NCBI RefSeq assembly: GCF_000153045.1
Contig: NZ_CH724159.1
Location: forward strand, 1,067,228-1,131,227
DNA: 64,000 bases
DNA from: Synechococcus sp. WH 5701
Lineage (GTDB): Bacteria; Cyanobacteriota; Cyanobacteriia; PCC-6307; Cyanobiaceae
Direction of reading: 5' to 3'
In this document: positions 1-58,714 of the stretch, piece by piece
Layout of the letters: every line of letters begins with the position of its first letter
How positions within the stretch are numbered: the stretch's first letter is position 1
Translations under genes and position numbers: made by a program
Notes under the pieces: model-generated
Seen by the model: the letters and a program-made list of their open reading frames with translations, nothing else
Told to the model about the DNA's origin: nothing
Database searches by the model: none

Positions 1-630
1 GCGCCGGTCGGAGCGACCCTTGCCGCCGCGGTTGCCGCGCTGGGCCACCGGACCGATCACCTCGAAGTGCTCCACCTGGAGGTGGTGGCCGATCCGGCGC
101 AGATCGAGGGAGACGAAGTGGCGCAGATGCTCGAGGGGTACCTCGCCGCTGAGGGGCAACTTGAACGGCTGGGGGCGGCTGCCATCGGGTCTGGGGCGCT
201 GGCGCACCTTCACCACCAGCTCTTTGGACTCGGGGCGGGTGTAGATGAGCTCGCCCCGCACCGAGAAGTAGTCATCGCCTTCGGGGAGACCATCGGCGGG
301 AGGCACTTCTTCAGCACCGGGCACCGCTTCAGGGTCGGGCTCGCTGAGGGTGCTGGGTTCCCAGACCCCCACCATCTGCAGGTGCAAGGCGCCGGCTTCC
401 CGGCAGCGGGGATACACCACCCAGAGGTGGGAGCGCTCCAGATCGAGGTGGCGGCGCACCAGGCTGAGCACCCGGCCGAGTACGACGGCATCGATCTCGG
501 TGCCGTCGTCGGTGCGGATCAGCCCACGAGTGAGCTGCTCGGGGTCGGAGGGCACGTACTGACCTCGCACCACGCCGATGGCCCGGTACTGAAGCGGTTC
601 GGTGACCGGGGAAATGGGGTGTTGACGCAT
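1..630 (-). CDS. Conserved hypothetical protein (C-terminus outside window)
   Basis: An open minus-strand frame of 210 codons starts at the ATG at 628-630 and runs off the left window edge. The protein begins MRQHPISPVTEPLQYRAIGV and has no signal peptide or membrane segment. Its middle (about residues 95-115) is acidic and Pro-rich, and the visible end turns basic and Gly/Arg-rich (NRGGKGRSDRR), which could suit nucleic acid binding. I do not recognise a named family. The third-position GC pattern follows this frame, and the long forward frame over the same bases (67-978) reads as its antisense shadow. It is divergent from the TPR gene starting at 713, so the 82 bases between probably hold promoters for both. 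Confidence 0.7.
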   Translation of the reverse strand, partial: MRQHPISPVTEPLQYRAIGVVRGQYVPSDPEQLTRGLIRTDDGTEIDAVVLGRVLSLVRRHLDLERSHLWVVYPRCREAGALHLQMVGVWEPSTLSEPDPEAVPGAEEVPPADGLPEGDDYFSVRGELIYTRPESKELVVKVRQRPRPDGSRPQPFKLPLSGEVPLEHLRHFVSLDLRRIGHHLQVEHFEVIGPVAQRGNRGGKGRSDRR

Positions 631-712
631 CGTGGTGGGGGCAACCAGAGGCCCGGAGCGCAATCTAGCCAGGGCTCCAGGGGTCAGACTTGCAGGATCC
701 GGAACAAGGTCG

Positions 713-1570
713 ATGCCACCGCGCCCCTCCACCGCTGCCGTGGGCTCCCGCCCACGCGTCTGGCTGGTGCTGGGGGCGGCGTTGCTCACGGTCGTTTCTT
801 TGATGGCGGGCTGGTGGCTGGGGCAACTCAGACTGGGCAGCCGCCCGGTGGACCGCTCGCGGCTGGAGCTGGAGAAACAGGCAATCCGCCTGCGAGCGGA
901 CGTGAGCCGGGGTCAGGCCAGCGAGGGCCAGCAGCAACGGCTGCTGCAACTGTTGCTGGCCCTCGACGACAAGGCTGAAGCCACGGCACTGCTGGAACGC
1001 ATGGCCGACCAGCAGCCCGAGCGCTGGAGCCTGCGCCTGATGCTGGCGGAGCTACGCCGCGACCAGAAGGACCCCAGCGGGGCGGAGCGGGAGGTGCGCC
1101 AACTGCTCAACCTCAAGCCTGACCGGATCGAGGCCCTGCAGCTGATGGCTCTGCTGCAGCTGGAGCAGGGCCGGGGCCCGGAAGCGGAAGCGCTGCTCAC
1201 CAAGGCCTATCAGCAGGCCAGTCGGGAGAAAGCAGGCGCCAAGTCCCTGGCGATCGGGCTGCTGCTGGCCGATCTCCAGCAGCGCAGGGGCCAGATTCCA
1301 GCCGCCGACAACCTCTACAAGCAGCTCACCGCCGCACACCCGGAGGATCCCCGGCCGCTGCTGGGACAAGCGATGCTGCGCCAGCAGCAAGGCAAGACCC
1401 GTGAGGCGCTGGAGCTCCTCGAGCGCGCCCGCCGGCTGAAGCCCAATCAGCCCGATACCCGCCTCGATGACGTGGCGGCGGCCTGGGGACTGGAACCCCT
1501 GCGCCGCGCCAAGGGAGCGAAAACGCCTCAGGACGCCATTAAGGAGCCGCCTGGGCGTCGAGATCCTTGA
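713..1570 (+). CDS. Membrane-anchored TPR protein
   Basis: Protein of 285 residues. Residues about 16-37 form one hydrophobic segment (VWLVLGAALLTVVSLMAGWW) after a short basic N-terminus, so it is probably a single-pass inner or thylakoid membrane protein. The rest is alpha-helical with degenerate tetratricopeptide repeats from about residue 65 to 255, such as EATALLERMADQQPERWSLR and LELLERARRLKPNQPDTRL. TPRs usually bind partner proteins; the partner is unknown. The ATG at 713 is preferred to 632 because the 27 extra residues are low-complexity and precede a good signal-anchor. The last 32 bases overlap the convergent gene ending at 1539. Its 3' end (AWGLEPLRRAK...) is duplicated at about 7229. 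Confidence 0.75.
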   Translation: MPPRPSTAAVGSRPRVWLVLGAALLTVVSLMAGWWLGQLRLGSRPVDRSRLELEKQAIRLRADVSRGQASEGQQQRLLQLLLALDDKAEATALLERMADQQPERWSLRLMLAELRRDQKDPSGAEREVRQLLNLKPDRIEALQLMALLQLEQGRGPEAEALLTKAYQQASREKAGAKSLAIGLLLADLQQRRGQIPAADNLYKQLTAAHPEDPRPLLGQAMLRQQQGKTREALELLERARRLKPNQPDTRLDDVAAAWGLEPLRRAKGAKTPQDAIKEPPGRRDP

Positions 1571-1820
1571 GGGCCTGATCGATCGCATCCCCGGGCTGGG
1601 TGGCGTTGTCGAGGGCGCTGTTGCGCCGGAGCTTGTTCATCAGCTCCATCGGATTTCCCGATTCGAGAATCCCGCCGCTGGGGCGGCCGGTGGGGCTGTT
1701 GTCGTAGATCTGCTGCTCCTGGATCGACTGCCCGTAGGAGGGCAACTGGGCCTGGGCCGGCGGGGCGAGCAGGGGAGCCGCGAGCAGGGTGAGGGCCGCA
1801 AGGGCCAGGTGACGGGCCAT
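1539..1820 (-). CDS. Small secreted hypothetical protein
   Basis: Protein of 93 residues with a clear signal peptide: a basic start (MARH), a hydrophobic core and an AQA cleavage site near residue 24. The mature part (about 69 residues) is polar with no recognised domain; it includes QIYDNSPTGRPSGG and ends DAIDQALKDLDAQAAP. It probably acts in the periplasm or thylakoid lumen. Convergent and overlapping by 32 bases with the TPR gene. The coding sequence for its C-terminus (GDAIDQ) is copied at about 7335-7390, which marks it as part of a duplicated block with xth. Confidence 0.65.
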   Translation of the reverse strand: MARHLALAALTLLAAPLLAPPAQAQLPSYGQSIQEQQIYDNSPTGRPSGGILESGNPMELMNKLRRNSALDNATQPGDAIDQALKDLDAQAAP

Positions 1821-1890
1821 GGCAGGCGTGCGACGGGACAGGATGGTGCCTTGATGCTAAGGGCCACCGGGGGTGGCTGATATTTGCGGC

Positions 1891-2742
1891 ATGCAGATCG
1901 CCACCTGGAACGTGAACTCCGTGCGCAGCCGGCTGGAGCAGGTGGTGGCCTGGCTGGAGCTGGAACGCCCCGAGGTGCTCTGCCTACAGGAAACAAAAGT
2001 GGAGGATGCGGCCTTCCCCGTCGGGGCGTTCAGCGACCTGGGCTACAGCGCCGTGATCAGTGGCCAGAAGGCCTACAACGGAGTGGCCATCCTCAGCCGG
2101 CTGCCGCTGGAGGATGTGCGCATCGGCTTCGACGCCCTGCTGCCCGATGAGCCGGCCGTGGCGCTGGCGGAGCAGAAGCGGGTGATCAGCGCCCGCATCG
2201 AGGGAGTGCGCGTGCTCAACCTCTACGTGCCCAACGGCTCGGCGCTGCGATCGGAGAAGTACGCCTACAAGCTGGCGTGGCTGGCCTGCCTTGAGCGCTA
2301 CCTGAAGGTCCAGGACGCCGACGGCGATCCCGTCTGCATGGTGGGGGATTTCAACATCGCCCTCGACGACCGCGACATCCACGATCCCAAGCGGCTCAGC
2401 GGCGGCATCATGGCCAGCGATCCCGAGCGGGACGCGCTGCGCCTGGCGCTGGATGAGCGGCTGGCCGATGTGTTCCGCCTGTTCGAGCCCGAGCGCGGCC
2501 ACTGGAGCTGGTGGGACTACCGCAGTGGCGCCTGGGACCGCGACAGCGGCTGGCGCATCGATCACATCTATCTCTCACAGGAGCTGCAGGAGCGGGCCAC
2601 CGGCTGCCTGATCCACAAAGCAGTACGCGGCAACGACAAACCCAGCGACCATGCGCCGGTGGTGGTGCAAGTGCAGTGGCCGCCGGAGGCTGAAGACGAT
2701 GAGCGGGATGAAGAACTGGAAGCTGAAGGCTGGACTGCCTAA
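1891..2742 (+). CDS. xth: Exodeoxyribonuclease III
   Basis: Protein of 283 residues of the exonuclease III/AP endonuclease (EEP) family, normal length. It cleaves DNA at abasic sites and removes 3' blocking groups in base excision repair. Visible family motifs: WNVNSVR near residue 6, the metal-binding Glu in LQETK (about 34), NLYVPNG, GDFNIA and the C-terminal SDHAP with the catalytic Asp-His pair. The start at 1891 gives the canonical MQIATWNVNS; an ATG six codons upstream is less likely. After SDHAPVVVQVQWPPEAE comes a variable acidic tail. This is the only complete copy; two partial copies of the 3' region lie at 4137-4290 and 7229-7812, making this gene the apparent anchor of the unstable region downstream. 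Confidence 0.95.
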   Translation: MQIATWNVNSVRSRLEQVVAWLELERPEVLCLQETKVEDAAFPVGAFSDLGYSAVISGQKAYNGVAILSRLPLEDVRIGFDALLPDEPAVALAEQKRVISARIEGVRVLNLYVPNGSALRSEKYAYKLAWLACLERYLKVQDADGDPVCMVGDFNIALDDRDIHDPKRLSGGIMASDPERDALRLALDERLADVFRLFEPERGHWSWWDYRSGAWDRDSGWRIDHIYLSQELQERATGCLIHKAVRGNDKPSDHAPVVVQVQWPPEAEDDERDEELEAEGWTA

Positions 2743-2825
2743 GCTCAAAACAAAGCTGGCGCTTGATTCGTTGCAGGAAGGAGCCAAACCAGAGGTAAGG
2801 CAACAGGTCGACGATCTCAAGATTC

Positions 2826-3270
2826 CGGCGTCTTCAGTGGCGTTATGGCCGGAGCTTGGAAGCTGCTACGACCAGCGGATCAAGTCGATTCAATGATCAA
2901 CAGAGGTGGCCACGGCTGAGGAGCGGGCGGCAGCGATTGAACTGTTCCTCCAGCTGGGGGACCTAGCAGGCGCTCAAGGGGCTGTCCTGAACTGGCTTAT
3001 GGATTGGTTGAGGGCCATGCCCCAACGGTGAAGTCGCCAGGAGGTACTCCAGAACCATCTGTTGCGTTGTCTGGCCGATGGGGCTGAGCTCAGCAGTGAT
3101 CAGGGACTTTTGCAGTTCTTCTGGCAGGAGTTGGAATAGCTTTTTCCGCCCCTGCCAGCACCTGGGGTATTGCCCCGGGTGGGAGTGCCGGTGCTGAACC
3201 GTCCCGATCTGCTGAAGGATCTGATCATCTGTGGACATGATGCTCGTTGGCAAGATCAATACTCTTCCGA
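2826..3270 (+). pseudogene. Decayed GT2-like glycosyltransferase fragment
   Basis: No intact frame, but pieces in different frames match the gene at 8142-9227. WPELGSCYDQRIKSIQ corresponds to WQELGRRYGDQVKAIG, LFLQLGDLAGAQGAVLNWL to LLRLGDRRGARDLVLAWL, and RVGVPVLNRPDLL to LVGVPVLNRPDLL. The match stops just after the start of the GT2 fold, so the catalytic part is missing, and stop codons and frameshifts interrupt the rest. It follows xth directly, as the intact copy follows the third xth fragment, so it belongs to the same repeated block. Nothing else was seen in 2743-3309. Confidence 0.7.
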
Positions 3271-3309
3271 CCAAGCCGCTCAGCCGGGGCCGCTGCGTAG
3301 GGCAAGGGA

Positions 3310-3735
3310 TCAGCCATAGGATTTTTCTTCAATAATCAACGATCCAGCGGCCAGACTGATCGATCGCTTCAAGGCTGCCCGTGAATCGTTGAGCAGATAG
3401 ACGCATCGCGCCATCCAAACGAATCGTGCATCAAAAACACGCCTATGTTCACTCCTCCGCAGGCTTTCCTCCACCTCCCAGAGACTGGCATTGACGGTAA
3501 GAATCGCGATCATCAAGGCCTCAATAGTGCTCTGGACGCCCTCCGGGAGGTTCGCGATTGCAGAATCGAGGGTCGCGGATAGGTCGTCTTTCTCAGCGAG
3601 GATGTGGGGCCGCTTAAGGGAGTCGGTGATCCTATCCTCCTTGATGGACAGGATGGTGATCCTGTCGATCACTTCGCCCATGGCAACGGAAATCATGATG
3701 CTGGGGGGATCGTGGTCCATCGCGGCACAGTTCAC
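3310..3735 (-). CDS. DUF6165-like protein
   Basis: Protein of up to 141 residues. The core MISVAMGEVIDRITILSIKE, then helices with NASLWEVEESLRR and a C-terminal stretch with SLIIEEKSYG, resembles the small helical DUF6165 family (about 120-130 residues), often found among glycosyltransferase genes. The reaction is unknown. The true start may be the ATG at 3720 (MDHDPPS) or 3696 (MISV), which would match the family N-terminus better than 3735. It sits alone on the minus strand between two remnants inside the repeated xth blocks. Family assignment is from memory of the pattern. Confidence 0.6.
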   Translation of the reverse strand: MNCAAMDHDPPSIMISVAMGEVIDRITILSIKEDRITDSLKRPHILAEKDDLSATLDSAIANLPEGVQSTIEALMIAILTVNASLWEVEESLRRSEHRRVFDARFVWMARCVYLLNDSRAALKRSISLAAGSLIIEEKSYG

Positions 3736-3887
3736 GGCGAATCACGTCAGAATGCCGCATCCGGGTCCTTGCCTTGTCATCCCCGCGCCACGAGCCTCAG
3801 CCCCAACGAGTCCGTTCTGGGGCATGGAGTGGTGGATTAGCACTCTGGAACGTAGGTCTGAGACTGTTGAAATAATGGGGACGTGAC

Positions 3888-4136
3888 ATGGCAATCACGT
3901 TCTGCGCCACCTGTGGTACGGCTCCCAGGCTTGTGGCCACGTCCCACTGGGATGCGCTGGGCCTTGAGCAATTGCTGTTTGGAGAGTGGCCTGTTGGAGG
4001 TGGAATCCGCGCACGGCTATTGCCCGACGTGAACACCACTCTCGACGATTGGCCCTGCCTGGAGGATGTCCTGGAGGGAGGTTCCTTTCATGCCACCAGT
4101 GATTGGTTGCAGCTGCTGAACGGCCTGACCGAAGAC
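3888..4136 (+). pseudogene. Unrecognised gene fragment fused to an xth remnant
   Basis: An open frame starts at the ATG at 3888 (MAITFCATCGTAPRLVATS) and runs into the second xth fragment at 4137, where it continues out of the xth frame. The first 83 residues include LLPDVNTTLDDWPCLEDVLE, faintly like the end of spermidine-synthase-like methyltransferases (a Thr-Asp-x-Pro-x-Leu-Glu pattern), but this is too weak to name. I read it as the 3' end of a lost gene joined to xth by a deletion or recombination. Bases 3736-3887 show nothing else. Confidence 0.35.
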
Positions 4137-4290
4137 CTGCAGGAGCGCGCCACCGGCTGCCTGATCCACAAAGCGGTGCGCCGGCAACGACAAACCCAGC
4201 GACCATGCCCCGGTGGTGGTGCAACTGCAGTGGCCGGCGGAGGCTGAAGACGAGGACGACAACGACGACAACGCGGAAGGACTGGAGTAA
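4137..4290 (+). pseudogene. xth 3' fragment, copy 2
   Basis: Starting at the LQERATGCLIHKAVR coding sequence, these bases are nearly identical to 2582-2700 of xth. An insertion of two bases after the AVR codons (near 4181) breaks the frame. If corrected, the frame gives the SDHAPVVVQLQWPAEAE ending and then a different acidic tail (DEDDNDDNAEGLE) with its own stop at 4288. The independent tail suggests it was once the end of a distinct xth allele, not a simple copy of the local gene. A small membrane protein follows, as after copy 3. Confidence 0.85.
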
Positions 4291-4340
4291 ACCGAATCCA
4301 CAGCTGGGAACCCCAACAATGGGTCAAACCGCTGCAGGGT

Positions 4341-4640
4341 ATGGACAACAAGCAGCTGAATCAGAAGCAGCTGGAGCGCCACCAGCTGGGGGAAGCACAC
4401 AAGCCAGCAACGGCCGGCCAGCGCGGCGGGCTGTGGGGGATGGGCGGCGGCGGGCTGGTGGTGGGCCTGACGCTGGCGGTGCTGATCGGGCTGCAACTGG
4501 GAGCGATGCCCTGGCGCTTTCGCCGCCAGATGTTCCAGCTGCAGGGGGCGCTGGCCGGTGGGCTGGTGGGTTTTGTGGTGGGCTGGGGCGTGGGACGCAG
4601 CCGCAGGCCACCGGGCGGTGGTGAGCCCAGAAGGCTGTGA
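4341..4640 (+). CDS. Small membrane protein (copy A)
   Basis: Protein of 99 residues. A polar N-terminus (MDNKQLNQKQLERHQ) is followed by two hydrophobic Gly-rich segments at about 40-55 and 70-85, separated by QLGAMPWRFRRQMFQLQG, and by a basic tail. Probably a two-pass inner-membrane protein. It is paralogous to the protein at 7815-8108 (VQLGAIPWRYRRQFWQLQG). Function unknown. Both copies directly follow an xth 3' end, so xth plus this gene looks like an inherited pair. The minus-strand rfbC remnant ends one base downstream. Confidence 0.6.
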   Translation: MDNKQLNQKQLERHQLGEAHKPATAGQRGGLWGMGGGGLVVGLTLAVLIGLQLGAMPWRFRRQMFQLQGALAGGLVGFVVGWGVGRSRRPPGGGEPRRL

Positions 4641-4641
4641 A

Positions 4642-5195
4642 TCAGCCCAGACGCGGCAGCTGCTCCGCGCTCGGCTGGGCCAGTGCTGGATTGGCGAGGT
4701 CCTTGGCTGAGAGCTGAGGCTCCACGCCAGCGGGCAGCTGGGGCCAGGTGATACCCACAGCTGGATCATTCCAGGCGATGCCCTGCTCCGAGAGGGGGTG
4801 GTAGTAATCGGAGCAGAGATAACAGAAATCAGCCAGATCGGAGAGCACCAGAAAGCCATGGGCGAAGCCCGGCGGCACCCAGAGCTGGTGATGGGTCACG
4901 TCGTCGAGGATGGTGCCCACCCACCGGCCGAAGCTGGGGGAGCCCTGCCGCACATCCACCGCCACATCGAAGACGGAACCCTGGGAGCAGCGCACCAATT
5001 TGCCCTGGGGTTGCACCAGCTGATAGTGCAGCCCGCGCAGCACACCACAGCAGGAGCGCGACTGGTTGTGCTGCAGCAGCGGTGGGATCCCGGCGTCGAT
5101 GAGGACTCCTGGCGGGCGGTTTCCACGAAGAAGCCACGCTCATCGCCAAACACCTTCGGCTGCAGCAGCAACACCTCAGGGATCAGCCTTCAGAG
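4642..5195 (-). pseudogene. rfbC: dTDP-4-dehydrorhamnose 3,5-epimerase, frameshifted copy
   Basis: Homologous along its length to the intact rfbC at 12437-13012. The 5' part reads LIPEVLLLQPKVFGDERGFF from about 5195. A loss of about one base after the ETARQ codons (near 5117) shifts the frame; from there VLIDAGIPPLLQHNQ through LRGLHYQLVQPQGKLVRCSQ to the stop at 4642 is open. The usual N-terminal Met is absent, the homology starting at the fifth or sixth residue of the family. Catalytic-region motifs (GLHYQ, DVAVD, PPGFAHGF) survive in the second frame. With an intact copy 7 kb away it is probably redundant and non-functional; a sequencing error could explain the shift but not the lost start. 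Confidence 0.85.
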
Positions 5196-5329
5196 CCTGG
5201 CAGCGGCCTCGCCAATGCCCTCTGAAGTTGCCCAGCCAGCAACATCTCCAGCGCCGCTCCTGTTACTGATGCACTTGCGGAAACCACGGCCTTCTGCGAT
5301 GGTCCGCAGACCAACAAGACATGGCGCCA

Positions 5330-6291
5330 ATGCCGAAAACCACTCTGATCACGGGCATCTCAGGGTAGGACGGCTCTTATCTGGCTGAGCTGCTGCTCGA
5401 GAAGGACTATGTGGTGCACGGCATCAAGCGGCGGGCAAGCAGCCTGAACACGCAGCGGATCGATCATCTGTATCAGGATCCCCACGAAAGCGATCCACGC
5501 CTGATGCTGCACTACGGGGATCTCACCGACAGCACCAATCTGATCCGCATCGTGCAGCAGGTGCAGCCCGATGAGATCTACAACCTCGGTGCCCAGAGCC
5601 ACGTGGCGGTGAGCTTCGAGAGCCCTGAGTACACCGCCAACTCCGACGCCCTGGGGACGCTGCGGATCCTGGAGGCGATGCGCATCCTCGGCCTCACCCA
5701 AAAGACGCGCATTTACCAGGCCAGCACGTCAGAGCTCTACGGGCTGGTAAAGGAGATCCCCCAGAAGGAAACCACGCCGTTCTATCCGCGCAGCCCCTGT
5801 GGGGTGACCAAGCTCTATGCCTACTGGATCATGGTGAACTACCGTACAGCCATGTGCTGCCGGCGTTGATCCGTCGCTTCCACGAGGCGGCCGGGCGCCC
5901 TGATCACGGCCGCGGCACCAGCGTGACCTGCTGGGGCACGGGCACGGCCCTGCGCGAGTTCCTGCATGTGGACGACCTGGGCGAGGCCTGCGTGTTCGCC
6001 CTGGAGCACTGGAGCCCCGAGGCTCCCGGCGCGCTGAGCTACCTGAACGTGGGCACCGGAGTGGACCTCAGCATCCGTGAGCTGGCGGAAGCGGTGGCGG
6101 CGGCCACGGGCTTTGCCGGCACGATCGAGTGGGACACCAGCAAGCCCGACGGCACGCCGAAGAAACAACTCGACGTGAGCCGTCTGGCGGCCCTGGGTTG
6201 GCGGGCGCGCATCCCCCTGGCCGTGGGGCTGGCCGCCACCGTGGCCAATTTCCGCGAGCGGCTGACGAACGGCCAGCTAAGGGCGGTGTGA
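5330..6291 (+). pseudogene. gmd-fcl deletion remnant (GDP-fucose pathway)
   Basis: The 5' half is GDP-mannose 4,6-dehydratase: from the ATG at 5330, MPKTTLITGISG, then an in-frame TAG at 5366-5368 where the family has Gln in the GxTGQDG nucleotide-binding loop, then about 160 good gmd residues ([41 protein letters not shown]). At about 5847 it jumps, with a frame change, to the last 145 residues of GDP-L-fucose synthase ([45 protein letters not shown]). One deletion has removed the end of gmd and the start of fcl, which are normally adjacent. The point stop and the deletion together abolish both enzymes. Bases 5196-5329 show nothing else. Confidence 0.9.
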
Positions 6292-6320
6292 GAGCTGGCT
6301 GCTGATCGTAGGCTTAATCC

Positions 6321-6692
6321 ATGTTGGTGAGCCCAGCCCAACGCCGGATCTGGCGCCAGCGCCGGCATGAGGCGATCGCCTTGGCCCAGGCCCGGGAGCG
6401 GGCGGCCCGCCGCCTGGCCGCTCAGGCAGCGTCGAGACTGCGCCAGGGCTGGCCGGGCATTGAGGGCGTCTGGCTGTTCGGCTCGGTGGCCGAGGGCCGC
6501 ACCCAGAGCAGCTCCGACATGGACCTGGCGGTGGCGGGTCTGCCACCGGAGGCGCTGCTCACCGCCAGGGCAGAACTCGACAACCTGGCGGCAGCCCGCC
6601 AGGCTCCGTTCATCCCGATCGATCTGGTGTGTCTGGAAAGCCTGCCGCCCCACTGGCAGCAGCGCATCCGGGAGCGGGCCATCGTGTTGTGA
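6321..6692 (+). CDS. mntA: MntA-type nucleotidyltransferase antitoxin
   Basis: Protein of 123 residues, a minimal nucleotidyltransferase with an exact GSx10DxD motif (Gly54-Ser55, Asp66, Asp68: GSVAEGRTQSSSDMDLAV). In the HepT-MntA type VII systems this enzyme AMPylates a Tyr of the HEPN toxin and silences it. A basic helical N-terminus (about 40 residues) precedes the fold, longer than in minimal MntA proteins. The HepT gene begins 13 bases downstream, so they are probably one operon. The pair sits between the gmd/fcl remnant and the third xth fragment, both degraded, yet is itself intact. Confidence 0.85.
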   Translation: MLVSPAQRRIWRQRRHEAIALAQARERAARRLAAQAASRLRQGWPGIEGVWLFGSVAEGRTQSSSDMDLAVAGLPPEALLTARAELDNLAAARQAPFIPIDLVCLESLPPHWQQRIRERAIVL

Positions 6693-6705
6693 TGCTCAAG
6701 CTTTG

Positions 6706-7203
6706 ATGGCCTCCCTTGATCCCTGGCAGCGGCGGCTGAGCGATCTGCAGCTCGATTTGCGCATCGAGCGCGACAGACTCTCAGAACTGGTGGGCAGCCT
6801 CAAGAGGCTCGAGGGCTTCATGGAGGCAGGCAAAGGCAGCAGTGAAACGGTCGACTCGGCTGCCCTGCGGCTCCAGAGTCTCTACACCGGCGTGGAGCGG
6901 TGTCTGCTGTTGATCGTGAGGGTGCTCAACGGGGGAACACCTGAGGACAGCGACTGGCATCGACGGTTGCTGGATCGTATGGCCGTCGTCACCGATTCGA
7001 GGCCTGCCGTGCTGAGCCCGGCGGTGAGGTTGGGATTGGCGGAACTGCTGGCTTTCCGCCATGTGGTGCGCCACCTCTACGCCTACGAACTGGATGCGGA
7101 TCGGGTGCGCCTGCTGCTTGAGCGGGCCATCGCCATGTGGCCGGGGATCGAGGAGGACCTTGAGCGCTTTCAAGCTTGGCTGGAAGAACTGGTCGCCGCG
7201 TGA
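6706..7203 (+). CDS. hepT: HepT-type HEPN ribonuclease toxin
   Basis: Protein of 165 residues, all helical. Residues 118-125 read RHVVRHLY, which is the RX4HXY motif of HEPN toxins (Arg118, His123, Tyr125); Tyr125 is the predicted AMPylation target of the upstream MntA. HepT toxins cut RNA when not modified. The ATG at 6706 is chosen because it follows the mntA stop by 13 bases and gives MASLDPWQRRL; the frame is open further upstream only inside mntA. The protein is complete with all key residues, so the system could be active. Confidence 0.85.
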   Translation: MASLDPWQRRLSDLQLDLRIERDRLSELVGSLKRLEGFMEAGKGSSETVDSAALRLQSLYTGVERCLLLIVRVLNGGTPEDSDWHRRLLDRMAVVTDSRPAVLSPAVRLGLAELLAFRHVVRHLYAYELDADRVRLLLERAIAMWPGIEEDLERFQAWLEELVAA

Positions 7204-7228
7204 AGCTGTTGATCGCTCTAGCCCGCAA

Positions 7229-7812
7229 AGCGGCCTGGGGCCTTGAACCGCTGCGGCGCAGCCAGGAGATCAAAGCTCCTCAGACCACTCCTCAGAACGC
7301 CCCTAAGGAACCCTGGGCCTCCAGGGACCTGATGGCCTGATCGACGGCATCTCCGGGCTGAGTGGCGTTGTCGAGGGCACTGCTGCGCCGCTACCTCGAC
7401 GCCCAGGACGCCGACGCTGAACCCCTCTGCATGGTTGGTGATTTCAACATCGCCCTCGATGACCGCGACATCCACGACCCCCAGCGACCCCGAGCGGGAC
7501 GCGCTGCGCCTGGCGCTGGATGAACGGCAGGCCGATGTGTTCCGCCTGTTCGAGCCCGACAGCGGCCACTGGAGCTGGTGGGATTACCGCAGCGGCGCCT
7601 GGGATCGCGACAGCGGCTGGCGCATCGACCACATCTATCTCTCAGAGGAGCTGCAGGAGCGGGCCACCGGCTGCCGGATCCAAAAAGCAGTACGCGGCAA
7701 CGACAAACCCAGCGACCATGCGCCGGTGGTGGTGCAGCTGCAATGGCCGCCGGAGAGTGAAAAGAACGAGGACCTGGATTGGGAAGAGCAGTGGCTGGAT
7801 GGAGCTGGATAA
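7229..7812 (+). pseudogene. Duplicated TPR-end / secreted-protein-end / xth block, copy 3
   Basis: A collapsed copy of 1483-2742. Bases 7229-7310 match the end of the TPR gene (AWGLEPLRR), 7320-7390 the end of the small secreted-protein gene, and from about 7390 the sequence jumps into xth at the LERYLKVQDADGDPVCMVGDFN region. A second small deletion removes KRLSGGIMA. From there xth is colinear to SDHAPVVVQLQWPPE and ends in its own tail (SEKNEDLDWEEQWLDGAG) with a stop at 7810-7812. The open frame from 7435 lacks the N-terminal half and the first metal-binding Glu and cannot be an active nuclease. Confidence 0.9.
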
Positions 7813-7814
7813 AA

Positions 7815-8108
7815 TTGGTAGCATCAAACGAAGATCCCGGCAAATTGCCCGATTCCGTCGCACCGTCGCGTCCCGAGGGCAACAAGCTGGCGGAGCACAG
7901 CCCTGAACAGCGTGGGGGCATGGCCAGGTTGGTGGGAGGTGGCAGCCTTGCTCTTATCCTGGCCTTGGTGGTTGGAGTTCAATTGGGGGCGATTCCCTGG
8001 CGGTACCGGCGCCAGTTCTGGCAATTGCAAGGGGCCATGGCCGGTAGCTTGGTGGGCTACTTGGTGGGCAGGACCATGGGCAGGGGTCGACGCGACGAAA
8101 GCCTTTAG
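7815..8108 (+). CDS. Small membrane protein (copy B)
   Basis: Protein of about 97 residues, paralogue of the one at 4341-4640: a polar N-terminus, GGGSLALILALVVGVQLGA, the shared linker IPWRYRRQFWQLQGAMAG and a second Gly-rich hydrophobic segment, then a basic end. Two membrane passes are likely. No ATG starts the full homologous length; a TTG at 7815 with GGAG ten bases upstream (7801-7804) fits, and an internal ATG near 7920 (MARLVGGG) is the alternative. It overlaps nothing and is followed by the GT gene. Confidence 0.55.
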   Translation: MVASNEDPGKLPDSVAPSRPEGNKLAEHSPEQRGGMARLVGGGSLALILALVVGVQLGAIPWRYRRQFWQLQGAMAGSLVGYLVGRTMGRGRRDESL

Positions 8109-8141: not shown

Positions 8142-9227
8142 TTGGAACAGGGTGAGGGAGACCTGACCTCGCTGGCCGCAGCGGTCACGACCTGGCAGGA
8201 ACTGGGACGTCGCTATGGGGATCAGGTCAAGGCGATCGGCTTGACTTGCGATGCCGCAAGCCCGATCCGTGCTGTGAGCGTGGACCAGTTGCTCCGCCTT
8301 GGCGATCGCCGTGGAGCAAGGGATCTGGTGCTGGCTTGGCTGCATCAGGAATTGGCGATGGTGCCCATGCAGACCGACCCAGAAACTCTGCTATCGGCGG
8401 ATTTGCTGCGCTGTCTGGCTGATGTGGTGGAGACCACCAGTGATCAGCCACTGCTGGAACAATTCTGGCGAGGTCTGGAGCGCTTCTCGCCACCACCACC
8501 AGACCAAGGATTGCTGCCGCTGGTAGGCGTTCCGGTGCTGAACCGACCCGATTTACTGGAACGGTTATTGGCCAGCCTGGATGTGCCAGTGCAGACCCTG
8601 GCGATTGTTGACAACAGTTCCGGACGCGTGGGAGACGATGCCAAGGCAATGCGCAACCTGTTGGATCGATTGGATCAAGACGGATGGCCTGGCGTACAGC
8701 ACGTGCGCATCGCCCGTGCGTTTGGGAATGCTGGGGTGGCTTCTGCCTGGAATCAGATTCTCCTGGGATTTCCTGATGCCAGCCTGGCCCTGATCGTGAA
8801 CAACGATGTAGCATTCCCACCTGGGGTACTCGGCAAGGCACTCGAGACAATCGATTCCAGCCGGGCCCAGTTCATGCCGTTGCTACCTGATGGGCAGGCC
8901 TTTTCTGCCTTCCTGATCACGGCCCAGACCTGGGACAGAATCGGTCTGTTTGACGACAACTTCCATCCCGCCTACTGCGAGGATATGGATTATCGTGATC
9001 GCTTACTGGCCTGTACTGACATTGACTTGCTCGACGGCTCTTTTGTCCATGAATCCATGGCAAGCATCAATCAGGTCACCAGTGCTACTGTGGCCAGTGA
9101 TCCCAACTTGGCGAAGACCAACAGCCGCAGCTATCAACTGAATCGACTCTGGTATCTCAACCGTCGCAGGCATCAGCTGGGCGACAAAGGTCGCTGGCGG
9201 CGCCGCTGGCTGAACCACTGGCGCTGA
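8142..9227 (+). CDS. GT2-like glycosyltransferase
   Basis: Protein of about 361 residues. The N-terminal 120 residues are helical and unrecognised. From about residue 125 a GT-A fold is readable: GVPVLNRPDLLERLLASLD, IVDNSS, then LALIVNNDVAFPPG (NND near the metal-binding position) and IGLFDDNFHPAYCEDMDYRD, the late ED motif of GT2 enzymes. It would transfer an unknown activated sugar. The start is weak: a TTG at 8142 preceded by AGG; no ATG in frame gives the same N-terminus, although the shared homology with the remnant at 2826 supports coding from near here. Probably co-transcribed with the small membrane protein 33 bases upstream. Confidence 0.75.
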   Translation: MEQGEGDLTSLAAAVTTWQELGRRYGDQVKAIGLTCDAASPIRAVSVDQLLRLGDRRGARDLVLAWLHQELAMVPMQTDPETLLSADLLRCLADVVETTSDQPLLEQFWRGLERFSPPPPDQGLLPLVGVPVLNRPDLLERLLASLDVPVQTLAIVDNSSGRVGDDAKAMRNLLDRLDQDGWPGVQHVRIARAFGNAGVASAWNQILLGFPDASLALIVNNDVAFPPGVLGKALETIDSSRAQFMPLLPDGQAFSAFLITAQTWDRIGLFDDNFHPAYCEDMDYRDRLLACTDIDLLDGSFVHESMASINQVTSATVASDPNLAKTNSRSYQLNRLWYLNRRRHQLGDKGRWRRRWLNHWR

Positions 9228-10130: not shown

Positions 10131-10304
10131 TGAGTCCTCAGCAGAAGTCCAATAGACCGCCAGCCTTGTCTTCGACTTCATGGCAACCGGCCTGATGCAT
10201 TGAGCGATACCAGATCGAAGGCAGCAACTGAATGCAAATGTATCTTAAGGCACAATCGATGCTGAACATCGCCTCTATGATTACAGTTGAATGGCCGAAT
10301 TCCA

Positions 10305-11207
10305 GTGGCATCACTCACCTACTCCAATTACTACCGCGTCGAATTCGACAGTCTGGGTGTTTTAACAGTAATCAGCAACGACCGTTCCAACGGCGACGTT
10401 ACGATCACACCTGTGGTCGACGATGGAATCCTATCCAACGGTGAACGCGCAGCCGTCAACTTTCAACGCTCCAACAACACCACTGTCAATCAGAATGCCC
10501 GCTATGCCGGCAGTGTTGCCGGAGGTATCCTGCTTCAGCGAGGCACAAACTTCTTCCTGGCCACCAACACGCCTAACTTAGACGGCCAAGTAATCGGTAC
10601 CCCGTCCTTTGCTTCGACCCCTGTTTGCATCCTGGCCGGCACCCTCCTGGCCACCCCCTCAGGCGATCGGGCGATCGAAAGCCTCAAGCCTGGCGACCAG
10701 ATCATCACTGCCGATGGGGTCATGGCCGTGCGCTTCATCAGCCGCACCTGCCACACGCCTGAATCCCTCGAAGAGATCGATTCCATGCCGATCCTCATCA
10801 AGCAGGATGCACTTGGGAACGGTCTGCCGTGCCGTGACCTGTACGTGAGCCCCGATCATGCCGTTCTAGTGGATGGTCATCTCCTGCACGCCTCCGTGCT
10901 GGTGAACGGTCACAGCATCGTTCAGACGACAAACAAAGATTGGCGTGACCGTGACCTGCTGACCTACCTGAACGTGGAGCTGGAGGTCCATGCAGTGATC
11001 AAGGCTGAGGGGTTGGACGTCGAGTCGTACATCGACAACCGCCCCCGTTCCGACTGGGACAACTACGTGGCCTATCTCTCCCTTTACGGCAAAGACGAAC
11101 AGCCCATCCAGGAACTCCCGCTTCCCCGGATCAAGTTCAAGCGGCAGATGCCTACCAGCATCCAGGCCAAACTGGCCGCAGCCAAACCCGAGGCGATTGC
11201 TCTCTGA
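10305..11207 (+). CDS. Hint-domain protein (Hint_2 type), paralogue 1
   Basis: Protein of about 300 residues. The N-terminal 110 residues are beta-rich and unrecognised. From about residue 112 a Hedgehog/intein-type Hint_2 domain is clear: CILAGTLLATPSGDRAIESL, KPGDQIITADG, LPCRDLYVSPDHAVLVDGH and LNVELEVHAVIKAEGLDVES. The leading Cys and the SPDHA His are present, as in self-cleaving Hint folds. The GTG at 10305 is chosen because it gives MASLTYSNYYR, matching MATVTYQALYR of the paralogue at 11409; a TTG at 10287 is in frame. No signal peptide is seen. A strong terminator follows at 11243. Bases 10131-10304 show nothing clear. Confidence 0.8.
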   Translation: MASLTYSNYYRVEFDSLGVLTVISNDRSNGDVTITPVVDDGILSNGERAAVNFQRSNNTTVNQNARYAGSVAGGILLQRGTNFFLATNTPNLDGQVIGTPSFASTPVCILAGTLLATPSGDRAIESLKPGDQIITADGVMAVRFISRTCHTPESLEEIDSMPILIKQDALGNGLPCRDLYVSPDHAVLVDGHLLHASVLVNGHSIVQTTNKDWRDRDLLTYLNVELEVHAVIKAEGLDVESYIDNRPRSDWDNYVAYLSLYGKDEQPIQELPLPRIKFKRQMPTSIQAKLAAAKPEAIAL

Positions 11208-11242
11208 GCGGCATCAGCAAACGGTTCTTTTAGCGTTTCTCT

Positions 11243-11270
11243 AACCCGACCCAACGGTCGGGTTTTTTTT
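11243..11270 (+). terminator. Rho-independent terminator
   Basis: Perfect nine-pair stem AACCCGACC / GGTCGGGTT with a four-base loop, running into eight T. It lies 36 bases after the first Hint gene and separates it from the second, so the two paralogues have their own transcripts. Confidence 0.9.
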
Positions 11271-11408
11271 GAGCAGGCATCAGACTGATGGTGACTTGCC
11301 GTAATCCGCACGTGCTGAGAACCTTGAAAAATGGTGATCCTTGCTACCAAGCCATGTGCAGATTGTTCGTCTTTCGCTTAGGATGGTAAAGTCTTTATTG
11401 TTACATCA

Positions 11409-12436: not shown

Positions 12437-13012
12437 TCAGATCAAAAGAGCTCCAGCAGCGGGCAGATGCTCAGCAGGCTGCTGGGCCAACCTGGGGTTG
12501 ACCAGATCCTTGGCTGAGAGCTGGGCCTCCACCCCATCAGGGAGATCCGGCCAGGCGATGCCCAACTCGGGATCATCCCAGGCGATCCCCTGCTCGGAGG
12601 GCGGGTGGTAATAGTCTGAGCAGAGATAACAGAAATCCGCCACCTCACTGAGCACCAGGAAGCCATGGGCAAATCCCGGTGGCACCCAGAGCTGATGGTG
12701 ACTCACGTCATCAAGGATGGCGCCCACCCACTGACCGAATGTGGCTGACCCGCGGCGTACATCCACCGCCACATCGAACACCGCGCCGCGGGAGCAGCGC
12801 ACGAGTTTGCCCTGGGTCTGCACCAGCTGGTAGTGCAGGCCACGCAGCACACCGCAGCGGGAGCGCGACTGGTTGTGCTGCACCAGCGGCGGGATGCCGG
12901 CCTCGTCGAGCACGCTCTGGCGGGCGGTTTCCACGAAGAAGCCACGTTCATCGCCGAACACCTTCGGTTGGAAGAGCAGAACTTCAGGGATCGACTGGGG
13001 AATGATCTGCAT
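12437..13012 (-). CDS. rfbC: dTDP-4-dehydrorhamnose 3,5-epimerase
   Basis: Protein of 191 residues, the usual length. It epimerises C3 and C5 of dTDP-4-keto-6-deoxyglucose, third step of dTDP-L-rhamnose synthesis in the cytoplasm. Family motifs: FxDxRGFFxE (VFGDERGFFVE), RGLHYQ with the catalytic His, GxVxDVAVD and PPGFAHGF. It is the last gene of the minus-strand operon rfbA-rfbD-rfbB-rfbC; its ATG lies one base past the rfbB stop. A damaged paralogue is at 4642-5195. The C-terminal 20 residues are variable. Confidence 0.95.
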   Translation of the reverse strand: MQIIPQSIPEVLLFQPKVFGDERGFFVETARQSVLDEAGIPPLVQHNQSRSRCGVLRGLHYQLVQTQGKLVRCSRGAVFDVAVDVRRGSATFGQWVGAILDDVSHHQLWVPPGFAHGFLVLSEVADFCYLCSDYYHPPSEQGIAWDDPELGIAWPDLPDGVEAQLSAKDLVNPRLAQQPAEHLPAAGALLI

Positions 13013-13013
13013 C

Positions 13014-14087
13014 TCAGGCGAGGCGAGCGGCGTACTGAGACTCGAGATAGCTGGCGTATTCCGCCGACAGCAGCGGTTGCCACCACTCGCGGTTGGCGAG
13101 GTACCACTGCACAGTGCGGCGCAGCCCCTCCTGAACGGTCACCTGGGGCTGCCAGCCCAGCTCCTCGCGGATGCGCGTGGCATCGATGGCATAGCGGCGG
13201 TCGTGGCCGGGGCGATCGGTCACGAAGCGGATCAGCTCCCGGCTGGGGCGCACCGGCAGATCCGGGGCGAGTTCATCCATCAGTGCGCAGAGCATGCCCA
13301 CCAGATCGAGATTGGCGACCTCGTTGCAGCCGCCGATGCAATACGTGCGGCCGGGCTCGCCGGCCAGCAGGATGCGATCGAGAGCTCGGCAGTGGTCTTC
13401 CACATACAGCCAGTCGCGCACGTTGGAGCCATCGCCATACACCGGGATGGGCCGACCCAGCAGGATGTTGATCAGGGTGAGTGGAATCAGCTTTTCCGGA
13501 AAGTGAAAAGGCCCGTAGTTGTTCGAGCAGTTGCTCACCAGCACCGGCAGGCCGTAGGTGTGTTGCCAGGCGCGGGCGAGATGGTCGCTGGCGGCCTTGC
13601 TGGCGGCGTAGGGGGAGCGGGGGCTGTAGGCGGTGGTTTCACAGAAGGGCGGATCGCTGGGCTCGAGGCTGCCGAACACTTCGTCGGTGCTCACGTGCAG
13701 AAAGCGCCAGTCGGTGGGAGAACCAGCCGAGAGCCAGTGATCACGGAAGGCCTCCAACAACGTGAAGGTGCCGTTCACGTTGGTGGCCAGGAAGGCTCCG
13801 GGGCCCGTAATCGAGCGGTCCACGTGGGATTCGGCCGCCAGATGGGCCACATGGGTGATGGCGTGCTCCGCCAGCAGGGCGTCCACCAGCGGACGATCGC
13901 CGATGTCGCCGTGCACGAAGCGGATGCGGCCGGACTCGATCAGTGGTTGGATCGTGGCGCGGTTGCCGGCGTAGGTGAGGGCATCGAGCACCACGATCCG
14001 GTCGCCTGGATGGTCAGCGGCCCAGTGGTGGGTGAGGTTGCCGGCGATGAAGCCGGCGCCGCCGGTGATCAGCAGATGACGGGTCAT
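13014..14087 (-). CDS. rfbB: dTDP-glucose 4,6-dehydratase
   Basis: Protein of 357 residues, extended short-chain dehydrogenase. It converts dTDP-glucose to dTDP-4-keto-6-deoxyglucose. Visible: GGAGFIAGN dinucleotide loop at the N-terminus, STDEVFG with the catalytic Asp-Glu pair after Thr, YAASKAASD with Tyr and Lys of the YxxxK motif, and YGDGSNVRDWLYVEDHC. The ATG at 14087 (MTRHLLITGGAGF) fits the family; a start 16 codons upstream only adds unrelated residues. It lies between rfbD (54 bases upstream) and rfbC (1 base downstream). Confidence 0.95.
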   Translation of the reverse strand: MTRHLLITGGAGFIAGNLTHHWAADHPGDRIVVLDALTYAGNRATIQPLIESGRIRFVHGDIGDRPLVDALLAEHAITHVAHLAAESHVDRSITGPGAFLATNVNGTFTLLEAFRDHWLSAGSPTDWRFLHVSTDEVFGSLEPSDPPFCETTAYSPRSPYAASKAASDHLARAWQHTYGLPVLVSNCSNNYGPFHFPEKLIPLTLINILLGRPIPVYGDGSNVRDWLYVEDHCRALDRILLAGEPGRTYCIGGCNEVANLDLVGMLCALMDELAPDLPVRPSRELIRFVTDRPGHDRRYAIDATRIREELGWQPQVTVQEGLRRTVQWYLANREWWQPLLSAEYASYLESQYAARLA

Positions 14088-14141
14088 TGGGCCAGAACAA
14101 AGGACAGGGTGGTTCGTTGAGCAGTCATGACCCAAGGCAGA

Positions 14142-15074
14142 TCAGGCCCATGCGCGCAGGCAGGTGCGGAGATCCTCGCGCCAATCGGGAGGAGGGATGT
14201 CAAAGGCAGCACGGAATCGGCTGGTCTCCATTCGGGAATTGGCAGGGCGCTGCGCCGGGGTGGGGTAGGCGCTGGTGGGGATCGGGGTGAGGTCCGGGGC
14301 ACGGGCCAGCAGACCCAGCGCCACCGCTTCGGCAAAGATCGCTTCGGCGAAGCCATACCAGCTGACGGCCGGTTCGCCGGCGTAGTGGTAGGTGCCCCAG
14401 GGGAAGGGCAGATCGGGATCCAGTTGCGAGCGGTTGGCAATGGCTGCTTCGGCCAGGCTGAGCCAGGTGGTGGCGATGGCCTCGGCGCTGGTGGGGCCGC
14501 CGATCTGATCGGCCACCACCGAAAGGGCCGGACGCTCGGCTCCCAGACGCAGCATGGTGCGCACGAAGTTGGCGCCTTCCACGCCGAACACCCAGCTCAC
14601 CCGCAGCAACAGATGGGGACCTCCGGCGGCACGCAGGGCCCCCTCGCCCCCCAGCTTGCTGGCGCCATAGACGCCGAGGGGGCCGGTGGGATCGTCCTCC
14701 CGCCAGGGGCGCTCCCCGCCACCGGCGAAGACGTAGTCGGTGGAGAGGTGGAACAGGGGCAGGGAGCGGGCGGCACAGGCGCGGGCGAGCACGCCCACGG
14801 CGGCGTTGTTGATGGCCGCCGCCAACTCGGGTTCGCTCTCGGCCTTGTCGACGGCGGTGTAGGCAGCGGCATTGAGCACCAGGGCGGGCTGGTGTTGCTC
14901 CAGGAGCTGCTCGACGGTGGCGTCCAGCTCAGGGGCGGGGGCGGCCAGATCCAGCTCGGGCCTGGCGGCCAGCAGCAACGGACGCTGGGTCAGCAGTGTT
15001 GGTGCTAACCGCCGCAAGGCGGAAGCTACCTGGCCGGAGCGGCCGATCACAAGCACGGGGGAGAGGCTGGACAT
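14142..15074 (-). CDS. rfbD: dTDP-4-dehydrorhamnose reductase
   Basis: Protein of 310 residues, short-chain dehydrogenase family, reducing dTDP-4-keto-L-rhamnose to dTDP-L-rhamnose. Motifs: VLVIGRSGQVASAL at the N-terminus (GxxGQ loop), LNAAAYTAVDKAE, LSTDYVFAG and YGASKLGGE (YxxxK). The ATG at 15074 follows the rfbA stop by four bases; the frame is open upstream for 76 more codons but only in antisense to rfbA coding. Complete. Confidence 0.95.
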   Translation of the reverse strand: MSSLSPVLVIGRSGQVASALRRLAPTLLTQRPLLLAARPELDLAAPAPELDATVEQLLEQHQPALVLNAAAYTAVDKAESEPELAAAINNAAVGVLARACAARSLPLFHLSTDYVFAGGGERPWREDDPTGPLGVYGASKLGGEGALRAAGGPHLLLRVSWVFGVEGANFVRTMLRLGAERPALSVVADQIGGPTSAEAIATTWLSLAEAAIANRSQLDPDLPFPWGTYHYAGEPAVSWYGFAEAIFAEAVALGLLARAPDLTPIPTSAYPTPAQRPANSRMETSRFRAAFDIPPPDWREDLRTCLRAWA

Positions 15075-15078
15075 AGCC

Positions 15079-15987
15079 TCAGAGCCCCTCCTGGAGGAGA
15101 GCTTCGAGGTAGGCCCCGTAGCCCGACTTACGCAGGGGTGCTGCCAGGGCTGCAAGCTGCTCGGAGCTGATCCAGCCCTGCCGCCAGGCCACCTCCTCCG
15201 GGCAGCCGATCTTGAGGCCCTGACGGTGCTCGAGGGTGCGGATGTAGCTGCCGGCTTCGTGGAGGGAATCGCAGGTGCCGGTGTCGAGCCAGGCCATGCC
15301 ACGGCCGAGCAATTCCACGCGCAGGTCGCCGCGGTCGAGGTAGAGCTGGTTGAGGGTGGTGATCTCCAGTTCGCCGCGGGCCGAGGGCCTCACCTGGCGG
15401 GCCAGCTCCACCACATCGGGATCGTAGAAATAGAGGCCGGTGACGGCGTAGTTGGAGACTGGCTGGAGGGGCTTTTCCTCCAGCGACACCACCCGTTGAT
15501 CGCCGTCGAAGCCCACCACCCCATAACGCTCGGGATCAGCGACGCGATAGGCGAAGACGGAGGCACCGGAGGGCCTGGCACTGGCGGCCTGGAGATTGCG
15601 GGAGAGATCGTCGCCGTAGAAGAGGTTGTCTCCGAGGATCAGGGCCGCTGGATGTCCAGCAAGGAAGTTTGCACCGATCAGGAAAGCCTGTGCTAACCCA
15701 TCCGGGCTCGGCTGCTCGGCGTAGGACAGCTCAATGCCCCAGTGATGGCCGTCGCCCAGCAAGGAGCGGAACTGGGGCAGATCGCGGGGGGTAGAGATGA
15801 TCAGGATCTCATTCAGCCCCGCCAGCATCAGGGTGCTGAGGGGGTAGTAGATCATCGGCTTGTCGTACACCGGCAGCAACTGCTTGCTCACCGCCTGGGT
15901 GATGGGATGGAGGCGGGTGCCCGAGCCTCCGGCGAGAATGATGCCCTTCCGGCTGCTGGTGAGGGGTGATTTGGGCTCAGAGGGCAT
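15079..15987 (-). CDS. rfbA: Glucose-1-phosphate thymidylyltransferase
   Basis: Protein of 302 residues, sugar nucleotidyltransferase that makes dTDP-glucose from dTTP and glucose-1-phosphate. Motifs: [16 protein letters not shown] with the signature loop, [28 protein letters not shown] with the metal Asp, and EEKP. First gene of the rhamnose operon. The ATG at 15987 (MPSEPKS) has AAAGG about ten bases upstream; an in-frame ATG 11 codons earlier is less likely. Confidence 0.95.
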
Positions 15988-16233
15988 ACGTGGTGAACCT
16001 TTCACCCGTCCTTGTACCACGATTCATCCGGATGGTCGGTGCCGCCGTGAGTATTCCAACGTAAGGGGGCGTAGTTCATGCCCCAGCCGCCGATCAAGAT
16101 CACAAAGAATCAGGAGGTGAGCGGGTAAGCAGGTGAGCCGGATCATTGGCTCCCGCGATGCCCTACGCATGGCGGTGGAGCGCGAGTTGCTCGCACCAGT
16201 ATCTCGTATCAACTGCTGGAGTGGAGACTAGTC

Positions 16234-19400: not shown

Positions 19401-19678
19401 GGCCTTCCCCAACCCTGTCTGGTGCGCTTCAAGTGGTTCACCCTTCTGGATGGGCGGGGTGGGTGACCGGGCGTGACCAAACCCAGCGGGCATCGCGCCG
19501 CAGCTCGGTGGCGAAGCGTGATCCGGCCGCCAGCAACACTCCCGAACACCGTCACTCTCTCCAGGGAAGGAACACGGGCAGCCTGCACGCCCGTCCAGGC
19601 TTTGACCTGGCGCATCACCTGATCGGGCTCAGGAACAAGACGGCTTGATCTCTTCCATCAACAAAGCCAAGGCTTCGC

Positions 19679-55955: not shown

Positions 55956-58583
<2,628 letters not shown>

Positions 58584-58714
58584 GGATGATCTCCTCATGG
58601 GTGTTCGTTGCTGAAAGGCTATGAACGACCCGATGGCCAGCACAGGATGGGTAGGCCGAAACAATTGGCGAATCAACCGAACGGCGGCTCAGACCGGTCC
58701 GTAACGTCAAGCCC

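Follow-up and report, generated by a model that had tools for sequence, protein, structure and literature searches.

Why should one housekeeping gene end three times in succession on the same chromosome, each time with a different tail? The question is raised by xth, the exodeoxyribonuclease III gene, in a stretch of 64,000 nucleotides from Synechococcus sp. WH 5701 (the window; G000:C9:1067228-1131227), a picocyanobacterium with a draft genome of 3.28 Mb. A sequence-only reading of this DNA had noticed two further xth 3′ ends behind an intact xth and had explained them by a variable glycan island with xth as its fixed anchor: incoming islands would have brought their own xth alleles, recombined there and left older versions stacked and decaying. 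We compared the window genome (G000) with eight relatives of different species within the genus (G001 to G008, nine genomes in all) and scanned for xth in 400 genomes of the family, drawn from a larger group. The answer that we propose, and consider probable, is that a replacement-type glycan island lies between xth and clpB, and that at least three versions of it left their heads stacked at its left end by sequential displacement.

Three xth ends at one locus

The three stacked 3′ ends are real, and the coordinates first given for them were right within a few bases. Copy 1 (1891..2742, plus strand) is intact, encodes 283 amino acids, forms the left border of the island and matches the NCBIfam model TIGR00195, exodeoxyribonuclease III (E 6.7e-86). 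Copy 2 (4134..4290, plus strand) is a 3′ end only, frameshifted by a one-base insertion, with a tail and flank of the G006 type. Copy 3 (7389..7812, plus strand), delimited from the alignment, is without the first 135 codons, carries a 26-base deletion and has its own tail. When the xth DNA was matched against its own genome, these two pieces were found at 7389-7761 (E 4.4e-139) and 4134-4256 (E 7.3e-45), and the sole further match was a distant 30-base stretch (E 6.8e-4); the repeated xth ends are not chance. Copies 1 and 3 are direct repeats 5 kb apart. The shared part had been called nearly identical, which is right for the core (93% across a block of 290 bases) and not for the whole alignment, where 365 of 419 bases are equal between copies 1 and 3 and 129 of 156 between copies 1 and 2. 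Each copy does have its own acidic tail, yet different tails are normal for this gene, which carries a tail of its own in each of the eight relatives.

What precedes the anchor is constant. A TPR-repeat protein gene (632..1570, plus strand; Pfam TPR families) stands before xth in 8/8 relatives, and a small open reading frame (ORF) of 93 amino acids (1539..1820, minus strand; no Pfam match) lies between the two, also in 8/8, and thus the order TPR gene, small ORF, xth is the same in all nine genomes. The ends of these two upstream genes, of the G005/G007 type, are found again directly before copy 3 (7229..7390), as the sequence-only reading had observed.

Behind each xth end a different set of genes follows, and we describe these sets as layers. 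Layer 1 very likely consists of xth1, a decayed GT2-like gene, a DUF6165-like ORF and a truncated ORF. The decayed gene (2813..3226, plus strand) has in-frame stops and is 46% identical in amino acids to the ORF at 8142 in layer 3; at the nucleotide level it is 66.7-70.6% identical, over spans of 162-401 bases, to the genes that follow xth in G001, G003 and G004 or the broken xth in G007. The next ORF (3310..3735, minus strand) has a weak DUF6165 match (PF19662, E 1e-4, under its cut-off) and no match in the stretches of the eight relatives that were compared. The truncated ORF (orf3888; 3888..4133, plus strand) is fused to xth copy 2. Kin of it were found in 6 other genomes among the 400, four of them being G001, G003, G004 and G007, in which the full-length gene adjoins a small membrane protein gene (sTM) in the opposite orientation.

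Layer 2 most probably comprises xth2′, sTM2, a decayed rfbC, a gmd/fcl fusion and a pair of genes for an MntA-like nucleotidyltransferase (MNT) and a HepT-like (HEPN) protein. The product of sTM2 (4341..4640, plus strand) is 81% identical to that of the ORF after xth in G006 and has no significant Pfam or NCBIfam match. In rfbC (rmlC; 4642..5183, minus strand; PF00908) the frame is broken near 5100. The 5′ part of gmd, for GDP-mannose 4,6-dehydratase (5321..5844, plus strand; PF16363, and TIGR01472 with E 5.8e-75 on the open part 5411-5869), was cut by a deletion and is fused to the 3′ part of fcl, for GDP-L-fucose synthase (5846..6291, plus strand; NF047922, E 6.7e-42, profile positions 179-303 of 308); one deletion joined the two parts, between which other species hold more DNA. 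MNT (6321..6692, plus strand; Polbeta PF18765, and NF047752 with E 2.9e-11, under its cut-off) and HEPN (6706..7203, plus strand; PF20797, E 6.6e-29) are open frames. The start of an ABC-transporter-like gene (ABC′; 7202..7240, plus strand) comes next, joined to the TPR end; matching DNA follows HEPN in G007 and G237, and the name was taken from the kin in G237, an ORF with PF00005 plus PF00664. It was also possible to see that the frames of the MNT-HEPN pair (6321-7203) stay open amid decaying genes, in the window and in G007 alike; between the two genomes each of both genes shows 5 silent and 3 replacing codon changes.

Layer 3 would, in all likelihood, be formed by the TPR′/xth3′ piece, sTM3, a GT2-like gene, Hint proteins and an open rml set, and run onward to clpB. 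The product of sTM3 (7779..8108, plus strand) is 54% identical to that of sTM2 across 78 amino acids, and the small membrane proteins behind copies 2 and 3 are thus paralogous, as had been noticed. The open GT2-like frame (8142..9227, plus strand) is 55-60% identical in amino acids to its counterparts behind xth in G001, G003 and G004 and behind the broken xth in G007. The claim that copies 1 and 3 are followed by the same type of gene stands in these identities; the name glycosyltransferase given to it does not find a significant family model (PF00535 E 0.08; none in NCBIfam), the predicted structure is poor (mean predicted local distance difference test score, pLDDT, 51.5), and the label, taken from sequence motifs, is tentative. 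The rml set (12437..16020, minus strand) has four open frames, all on the minus strand and above the NCBIfam cut-off: rfbC2 (12437-13012; TIGR01221), rmlB (13014-14135; TIGR01181), rmlD (14142-15302; TIGR01214) and rmlA (15079-16020; TIGR01207).

A variable island between xth and clpB

Downstream of xth the relatives differ from one another. The gene right after xth is GT2-like in G001, G003 and G004, an sTM gene in G006, and rfbC in G002, G005, G007 and G008, and further downstream the order differs again among the eight. In G001, G003 and G004 the GT2-like gene is followed by tprP, kin of orf3888 and sTM; G003 and G004 then continue with the rml set, and the G001 contig stops at sTM. G006 has sTM and rml after xth. 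In G005 and G008, the minimal forms, rml is followed by clpB. G002 holds the whole rml set, CitT, gmd, fcl, MNT and a HEPN gene without its inner part. Five of these genomes (G001, G002, G003, G004 and G006) thus have a single xth, and G006 (xth-sTM-rml), G002 (xth-rml-CitT-gmd-fcl-MNT plus the cut HEPN) and G003/G004 (xth-GT-tprP-orf-sTM-rml) are simpler extant forms next to the window, which runs from xth1 through the GT2-like remnant, the DUF6165-like ORF, orf3888, xth2′, sTM2, rfbC′, gmd/fcl and MNT-HEPN to xth3′ and sTM3. A constant order after xth in relatives would have refuted the anchor reading; this was looked for and not seen among the eight. A constant upstream side and a varied downstream side in nine genomes bear out xth as the fixed anchor of a variable island. 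It owes its place as a border to where it lies and not to what it does.

On its right side the island ends at clpB (55956..58676, minus strand; TIGR03346, 1409.9 bits), as it does in G003, G004, G005 and G008. Both borders lie on one contig in five of the nine genomes, where the island measures from 3.6 to 97 kb: xth and clpB lie about 53 kb apart in the window, and the corresponding figures are 50 kb (G003), 97 kb (G004) and 3.6-3.7 kb (G005 and G008). In the other four genomes xth and clpB are on separate contigs. Genes of rml were found in 8/9 genomes (only pieces on the compared stretch of G007; the contig of G001 stops early). Between the rml set of layer 3 and clpB the window holds CitT and more genes. 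Genes resembling those for glycosyltransferases, sulfotransferases and WcbI are present in the window, and the gene content suggests that the island product is a surface glycan.

Outside the genus the picture is another. We examined 35 xth loci (28 of 80 named contigs plus 7 genomes), one of which is G008. Considering that none of the other 34 showed rml genes or clpB in the available flank, short in some of them, the use of xth as an island anchor seems, at the loci examined, to be peculiar to this genus.

Some further observations concern the inner part of the island. Two adjoining Hint_2-domain paralogues, 40% identical, occupy 10287-12359 and have kin before rfbC in G003. A stretch of about 400-900 bp at 19627-20281 recurs at several places in the G004 and G006 islands and once each in G002 and G003, and is possibly a mobile repeat. 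At 28577-30566, within the island, a DDE transposase lies beside a sulfotransferase-like gene of low guanine-cytosine content (0.42). Deeper in the islands of G006 and G004 there is a second rmlA-rfbC-rmlB set, in the opposite orientation.

Sources of the pieces and competing explanations

The assignment of origins was based on informative sites, colinearity and flanks, not on trees of the short xth pieces. The stretch 4131-5184, with xth2′, sTM2 and rfbC′, is colinear with G006 (85.7% over 1071 columns). Copy 2 shares 141 of 156 bases with the G006 xth, tails included, above its count with the local gene, and in the rfbC of layer 2 the informative sites side 79 times with G006, 18 times with the local rfbC2 and 9 times with neither. 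The DNA that follows is of another type: 5179-5844 (666 bp, the gmd side) is 96.1% identical to G007 and 5846-7240 (fcl-MNT-HEPN) 97.5%, when the core of the window and G007 is 83.8% identical in the TPR gene and small ORF, 91.0% in xth, 90.1% in clpB and its flank and 88.4% over 17 kb beyond clpB (in these core comparisons the pairs with G004, G006 and G001 give no value at clpB and beyond). In front of copy 3, the TPR and small-ORF end shares 156/162 bases with G005, 154/162 with G007 and 108/147 with the local gene, and 34/34 informative sites between the local gene and G005 favour G005. The displaced flanks are therefore nearest to different strains, as for sequential displacement; this pattern is seen in the flanks, and the xth pieces themselves do not decide it. 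From these similarities the likely donor clades would be G005/G007 and G006, and the block 5179-7391 probably arrived with the anchor fragment already joined to it.

Both borders bear marks of recombination. The intact xth1 is a mosaic with a breakpoint at 2206 (maximum chi-square 19.9; 0/2000 permutations as high): up to 2200 it shares 234 sites with G004 and 104 with G005, and after it 13 with G004 and 26 with G005. At the other border G005 and G007, which are 96.5% alike over the 17 kb beyond clpB, drop to 91.1% at clpB. The clpB of G007, compared with the rows for G004 and G008 left out, is also a mosaic, its island-facing (3′) part being 94-97% like G003 and its far end like the window; the sister of G007 being G005, the right border has been recombined too. 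As for the gene after copy 1, it belongs to the G001/G003/G004/G007 type, yet it is 67-71% identical to any of them. A G004 origin had been considered from an identity of 85.8% to G004 over 5-3217, and was rejected by 2743-3217 alone (288/470 bases with G004, 294/475 with G003, 275/460 with G001); only the arrangement, therefore, is of the G004 type.

Short stretches are shared at three joins. At the rfbC′/gmd join there are 6 shared bases, GGGATC, with one mismatch in the G006 allele; the join of the small ORF to xth3′ has a common stretch of 9 bases, CTGCGCCGC; and the deletion in xth3′ has 4 shared bases, CCAG. Some of these surely, and perhaps all, are later deletions and not entry joins.

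A comparable but simpler stack, of two layers, is present in G007. Its intact xth is followed by decayed rfbC and rmlA pieces, gmd, fcl, MNT-HEPN and a broken second xth, and then by a GT2-like gene, tprP, orf3888 kin, sTM and the contig end. Over the 279 bp immediately behind the intact xth the identity to G005 is 96.4%, and the DNA behind the broken xth runs colinear with that of G003 (86.5% over 3861), G004 (85.6% over 3514) and G001 (81.5% over 3829), so that a G005-type head stands in front of a G003-type head. We had taken the junction of HEPN with the TPR end as common to the window and G007, and rejected it on finding that the joins differ: the ABC-transporter-like gene after HEPN is fused to xth in G007 and to the TPR gene in the window. 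A second stack with a different join speaks for a recurrent process, even if the two are not fully independent, because both hold the gmd-fcl-MNT-HEPN block.

More than one xth match was found in 11 of the 400 family genomes, and we inspected G000, G007 and the nine others. In G118, G146, G172 and G402 a single gene seems to have been split, inside a contig or across two, and in G120 and G303 the second match is a distant paralogue (28-31% identity). G261 and G304 have a whole xth and, where another contig ends, a short 3′ fragment of the gene (54% and 62%). Tandem extra pieces were thus seen in 2/400 genomes, the window's and G007, and the contig-end pieces of G261 and G304 might belong to further stacks. 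Apart from these, G088, of another genus, has a broken xth (G088:C1:628730-629277) about 400 kb from its intact one.

Several results weigh against stacking by sequential displacement, or against parts of it. The xth bodies of copies 2 and 3 show no significant preference for another species over the local copy (copy 2, 3 sites with G006 and 1 with copy 1; copy 3, 11 with G005 and 15 with copy 1), and for the body of copy 3 the local copy 1 is significantly closer than G001, G002, G003 and G008, with no decision against G004-G007. Trees of the short xth pieces gave no resolved placement. For the tail of copy 3 and for sTM3 nothing close was found in the compared stretches of the eight relatives, and in 290 family genomes 10 others gave partial matches of 24-125 bases, none colinear over the stretch. 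Hence the idea that each incoming island brought its own xth allele is upheld by the flanks, which match different species, and finds no source in the xth bodies; and the single clear species match for tail and flank together is that of copy 2, with G006. When all triples were scanned for breakpoints, 40 of 252, which are not independent, gave a significant one; the range 2000-2742 took up 19 of the 40 and 500-750 another 15, and divergence across the genus had no peak at xth. As xth is not the sole cluster, the expression "recombination hot spot" applies fairly to the locus and in a modest sense to the gene. Layer 1 is decayed like layer 2, which does not favour an order with the newest version next to xth. 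Finally, the host assembly is a draft of 116 contigs with 5.11% contamination, from which an artefact or a mixture of strains might be suspected; we judge this very unlikely, the stretch lying inside a contig of 1.79 Mb with conserved genes on both sides, and the separate assembly of G007, with its own join, speaking against an assembly error.

The nearness of the third xth body to copy 1 (93%), with no other species significantly closer, would also be expected if the xth region had been duplicated in tandem within the lineage and the copies had then drifted. Taking into account the flanks, we find this improbable: every informative site in the TPR end ahead of copy 3 points to G005, the copy 2 flank is colinear with G006 and its rfbC sides with it, the intervening block is 97.5% identical to G007, and different genes follow each head. 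Duplication is contradicted for the flanks, and could apply to the xth3′ body alone. Some mobile elements insert at tRNA genes and resupply the gene end, and a site-specific element entering the 3′ end of xth, each insertion bringing a new tail, would likewise put the intact xth first and the displaced 3′ ends behind it, in the window as in G007. We hold this to be highly improbable, since a Pfam scan of part of the window ORFs showed no integrase, the sole recombinase-type match being the DDE transposase at 29532-30566, and the joins do not share a position, one lying at 4134 within xth, one at about 7229 within the TPR gene, and that of G007 elsewhere in xth. It is possible, even if we lean the other way, that the stack, entirely or in part, goes back to another strain and entered in one piece by ordinary homologous recombination. 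The block 5179-7391 is of the G005/G007 type throughout, and G007 has rfbC′-gmd-fcl-MNT-HEPN-xth′ in the same order; the joins ABC′//TPR′ and ABC′//xth′ differ, and such a transfer accounts for the movement of stacks and not for their first formation. It overlaps with sequential displacement, and the two may both apply.

If sequential displacement is right, foreign linear DNA of a related species would pair with the resident TPR-xth anchor, and one end would recombine there by homology, leaving in place an xth that is chimeric yet intact. The opposite end would join at a short chance match, sometimes inside the anchor of the resident, and the older head would be pushed downstream with a piece of the TPR gene or xth, the newest version presumably lying next to xth. 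The redundant genes would then decay, partly through short-repeat deletions; G002, with xth, the whole rml set, CitT and gmd-fcl-MNT, may show how layer 2 looked before its deletion. The genome has the DprA and ComEC families, which fit DNA uptake without proving it.

A different role for the stack can also be imagined, that of a slow switch in which earlier island heads are kept as a reserve, partly held by MNT-HEPN between the repeats. This cell type often holds several chromosome copies. Recombination of xth1 with xth3′ would then remove layers 1 and 2 and set the head of layer 3 behind a whole chimeric xth. We regard such a switch as improbable; the MNT-HEPN pair may nevertheless help to hold the layers in place.

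Relation to known systems

In enteric bacteria gnd is a housekeeping border of the variable O-antigen cluster. In staphylococci, staphylococcal cassette chromosome (SCC) elements stack behind orfX by means of a site-specific recombinase, and this is a difference from the present locus, with none among the ORFs scanned. We found no earlier account of the xth-clpB island or its stack in the open-licence literature searched, and neither xth nor clpB occurs in the available part of PMC7522525.

Clean replacement leaves scant trace of the predecessor, and stacked heads with pieces of the anchor are therefore a record of past exchanges, here between genomes about 84-91% identical in the compared core stretches. 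The range of forms in nine genomes makes the order of events testable with more strains.

Replacement flexible genomic islands have constant borders and strain-specific surface-glycan genes, and their exchange takes place through homologous recombination within the genes at the borders (Lopez-Perez et al. 2014, PMC4033161), and turnover of surface-sugar islands under phage pressure has been argued in the same work. Judged from sequence, our locus has the corresponding features, namely the same core borders, differing content and size, an apparently similar glycan function and recombination marks at the borders, among them the identity dip at a border gene, here clpB of G005/G007. In those islands whole clusters are swapped between close strains, typically above 96% average nucleotide identity (PMC4033161), whereas here different species are involved and old heads stay stacked.

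Stacking itself resembles the effector modules of the Vibrio cholerae type VI secretion system (T6SS), for which sequential displacement was described, with orphan 3′ regions of Rhs genes cited as a related case (Kirchberger et al. 2017, PMC5361080). Both have a constant anchor, new material in front of old, and displaced pieces nearest to different strains, and the mechanism proposed by those authors is homology-facilitated illegitimate recombination (PMC5361080). In the T6SS arrays the upstream portion of the effector module serves as anchor and displaced immunity genes are kept (PMC5361080), whereas at our locus a housekeeping gene has this role and the displaced pieces are mostly broken. 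The meningococcal capsule island offers another parallel: a polysaccharide island beside a gene, galE1, with a truncated second allele, galE2, left as a remnant and explained by illegitimate recombination (PMC5349592). That case has a single remnant, which lies in an inverted repeat through which inversion can occur (PMC5349592), and ours has two, in direct order. Replacement islands and sequential displacement are thus known; what seems to be new is this xth-clpB island and its stack, in which the layers are unusually legible.

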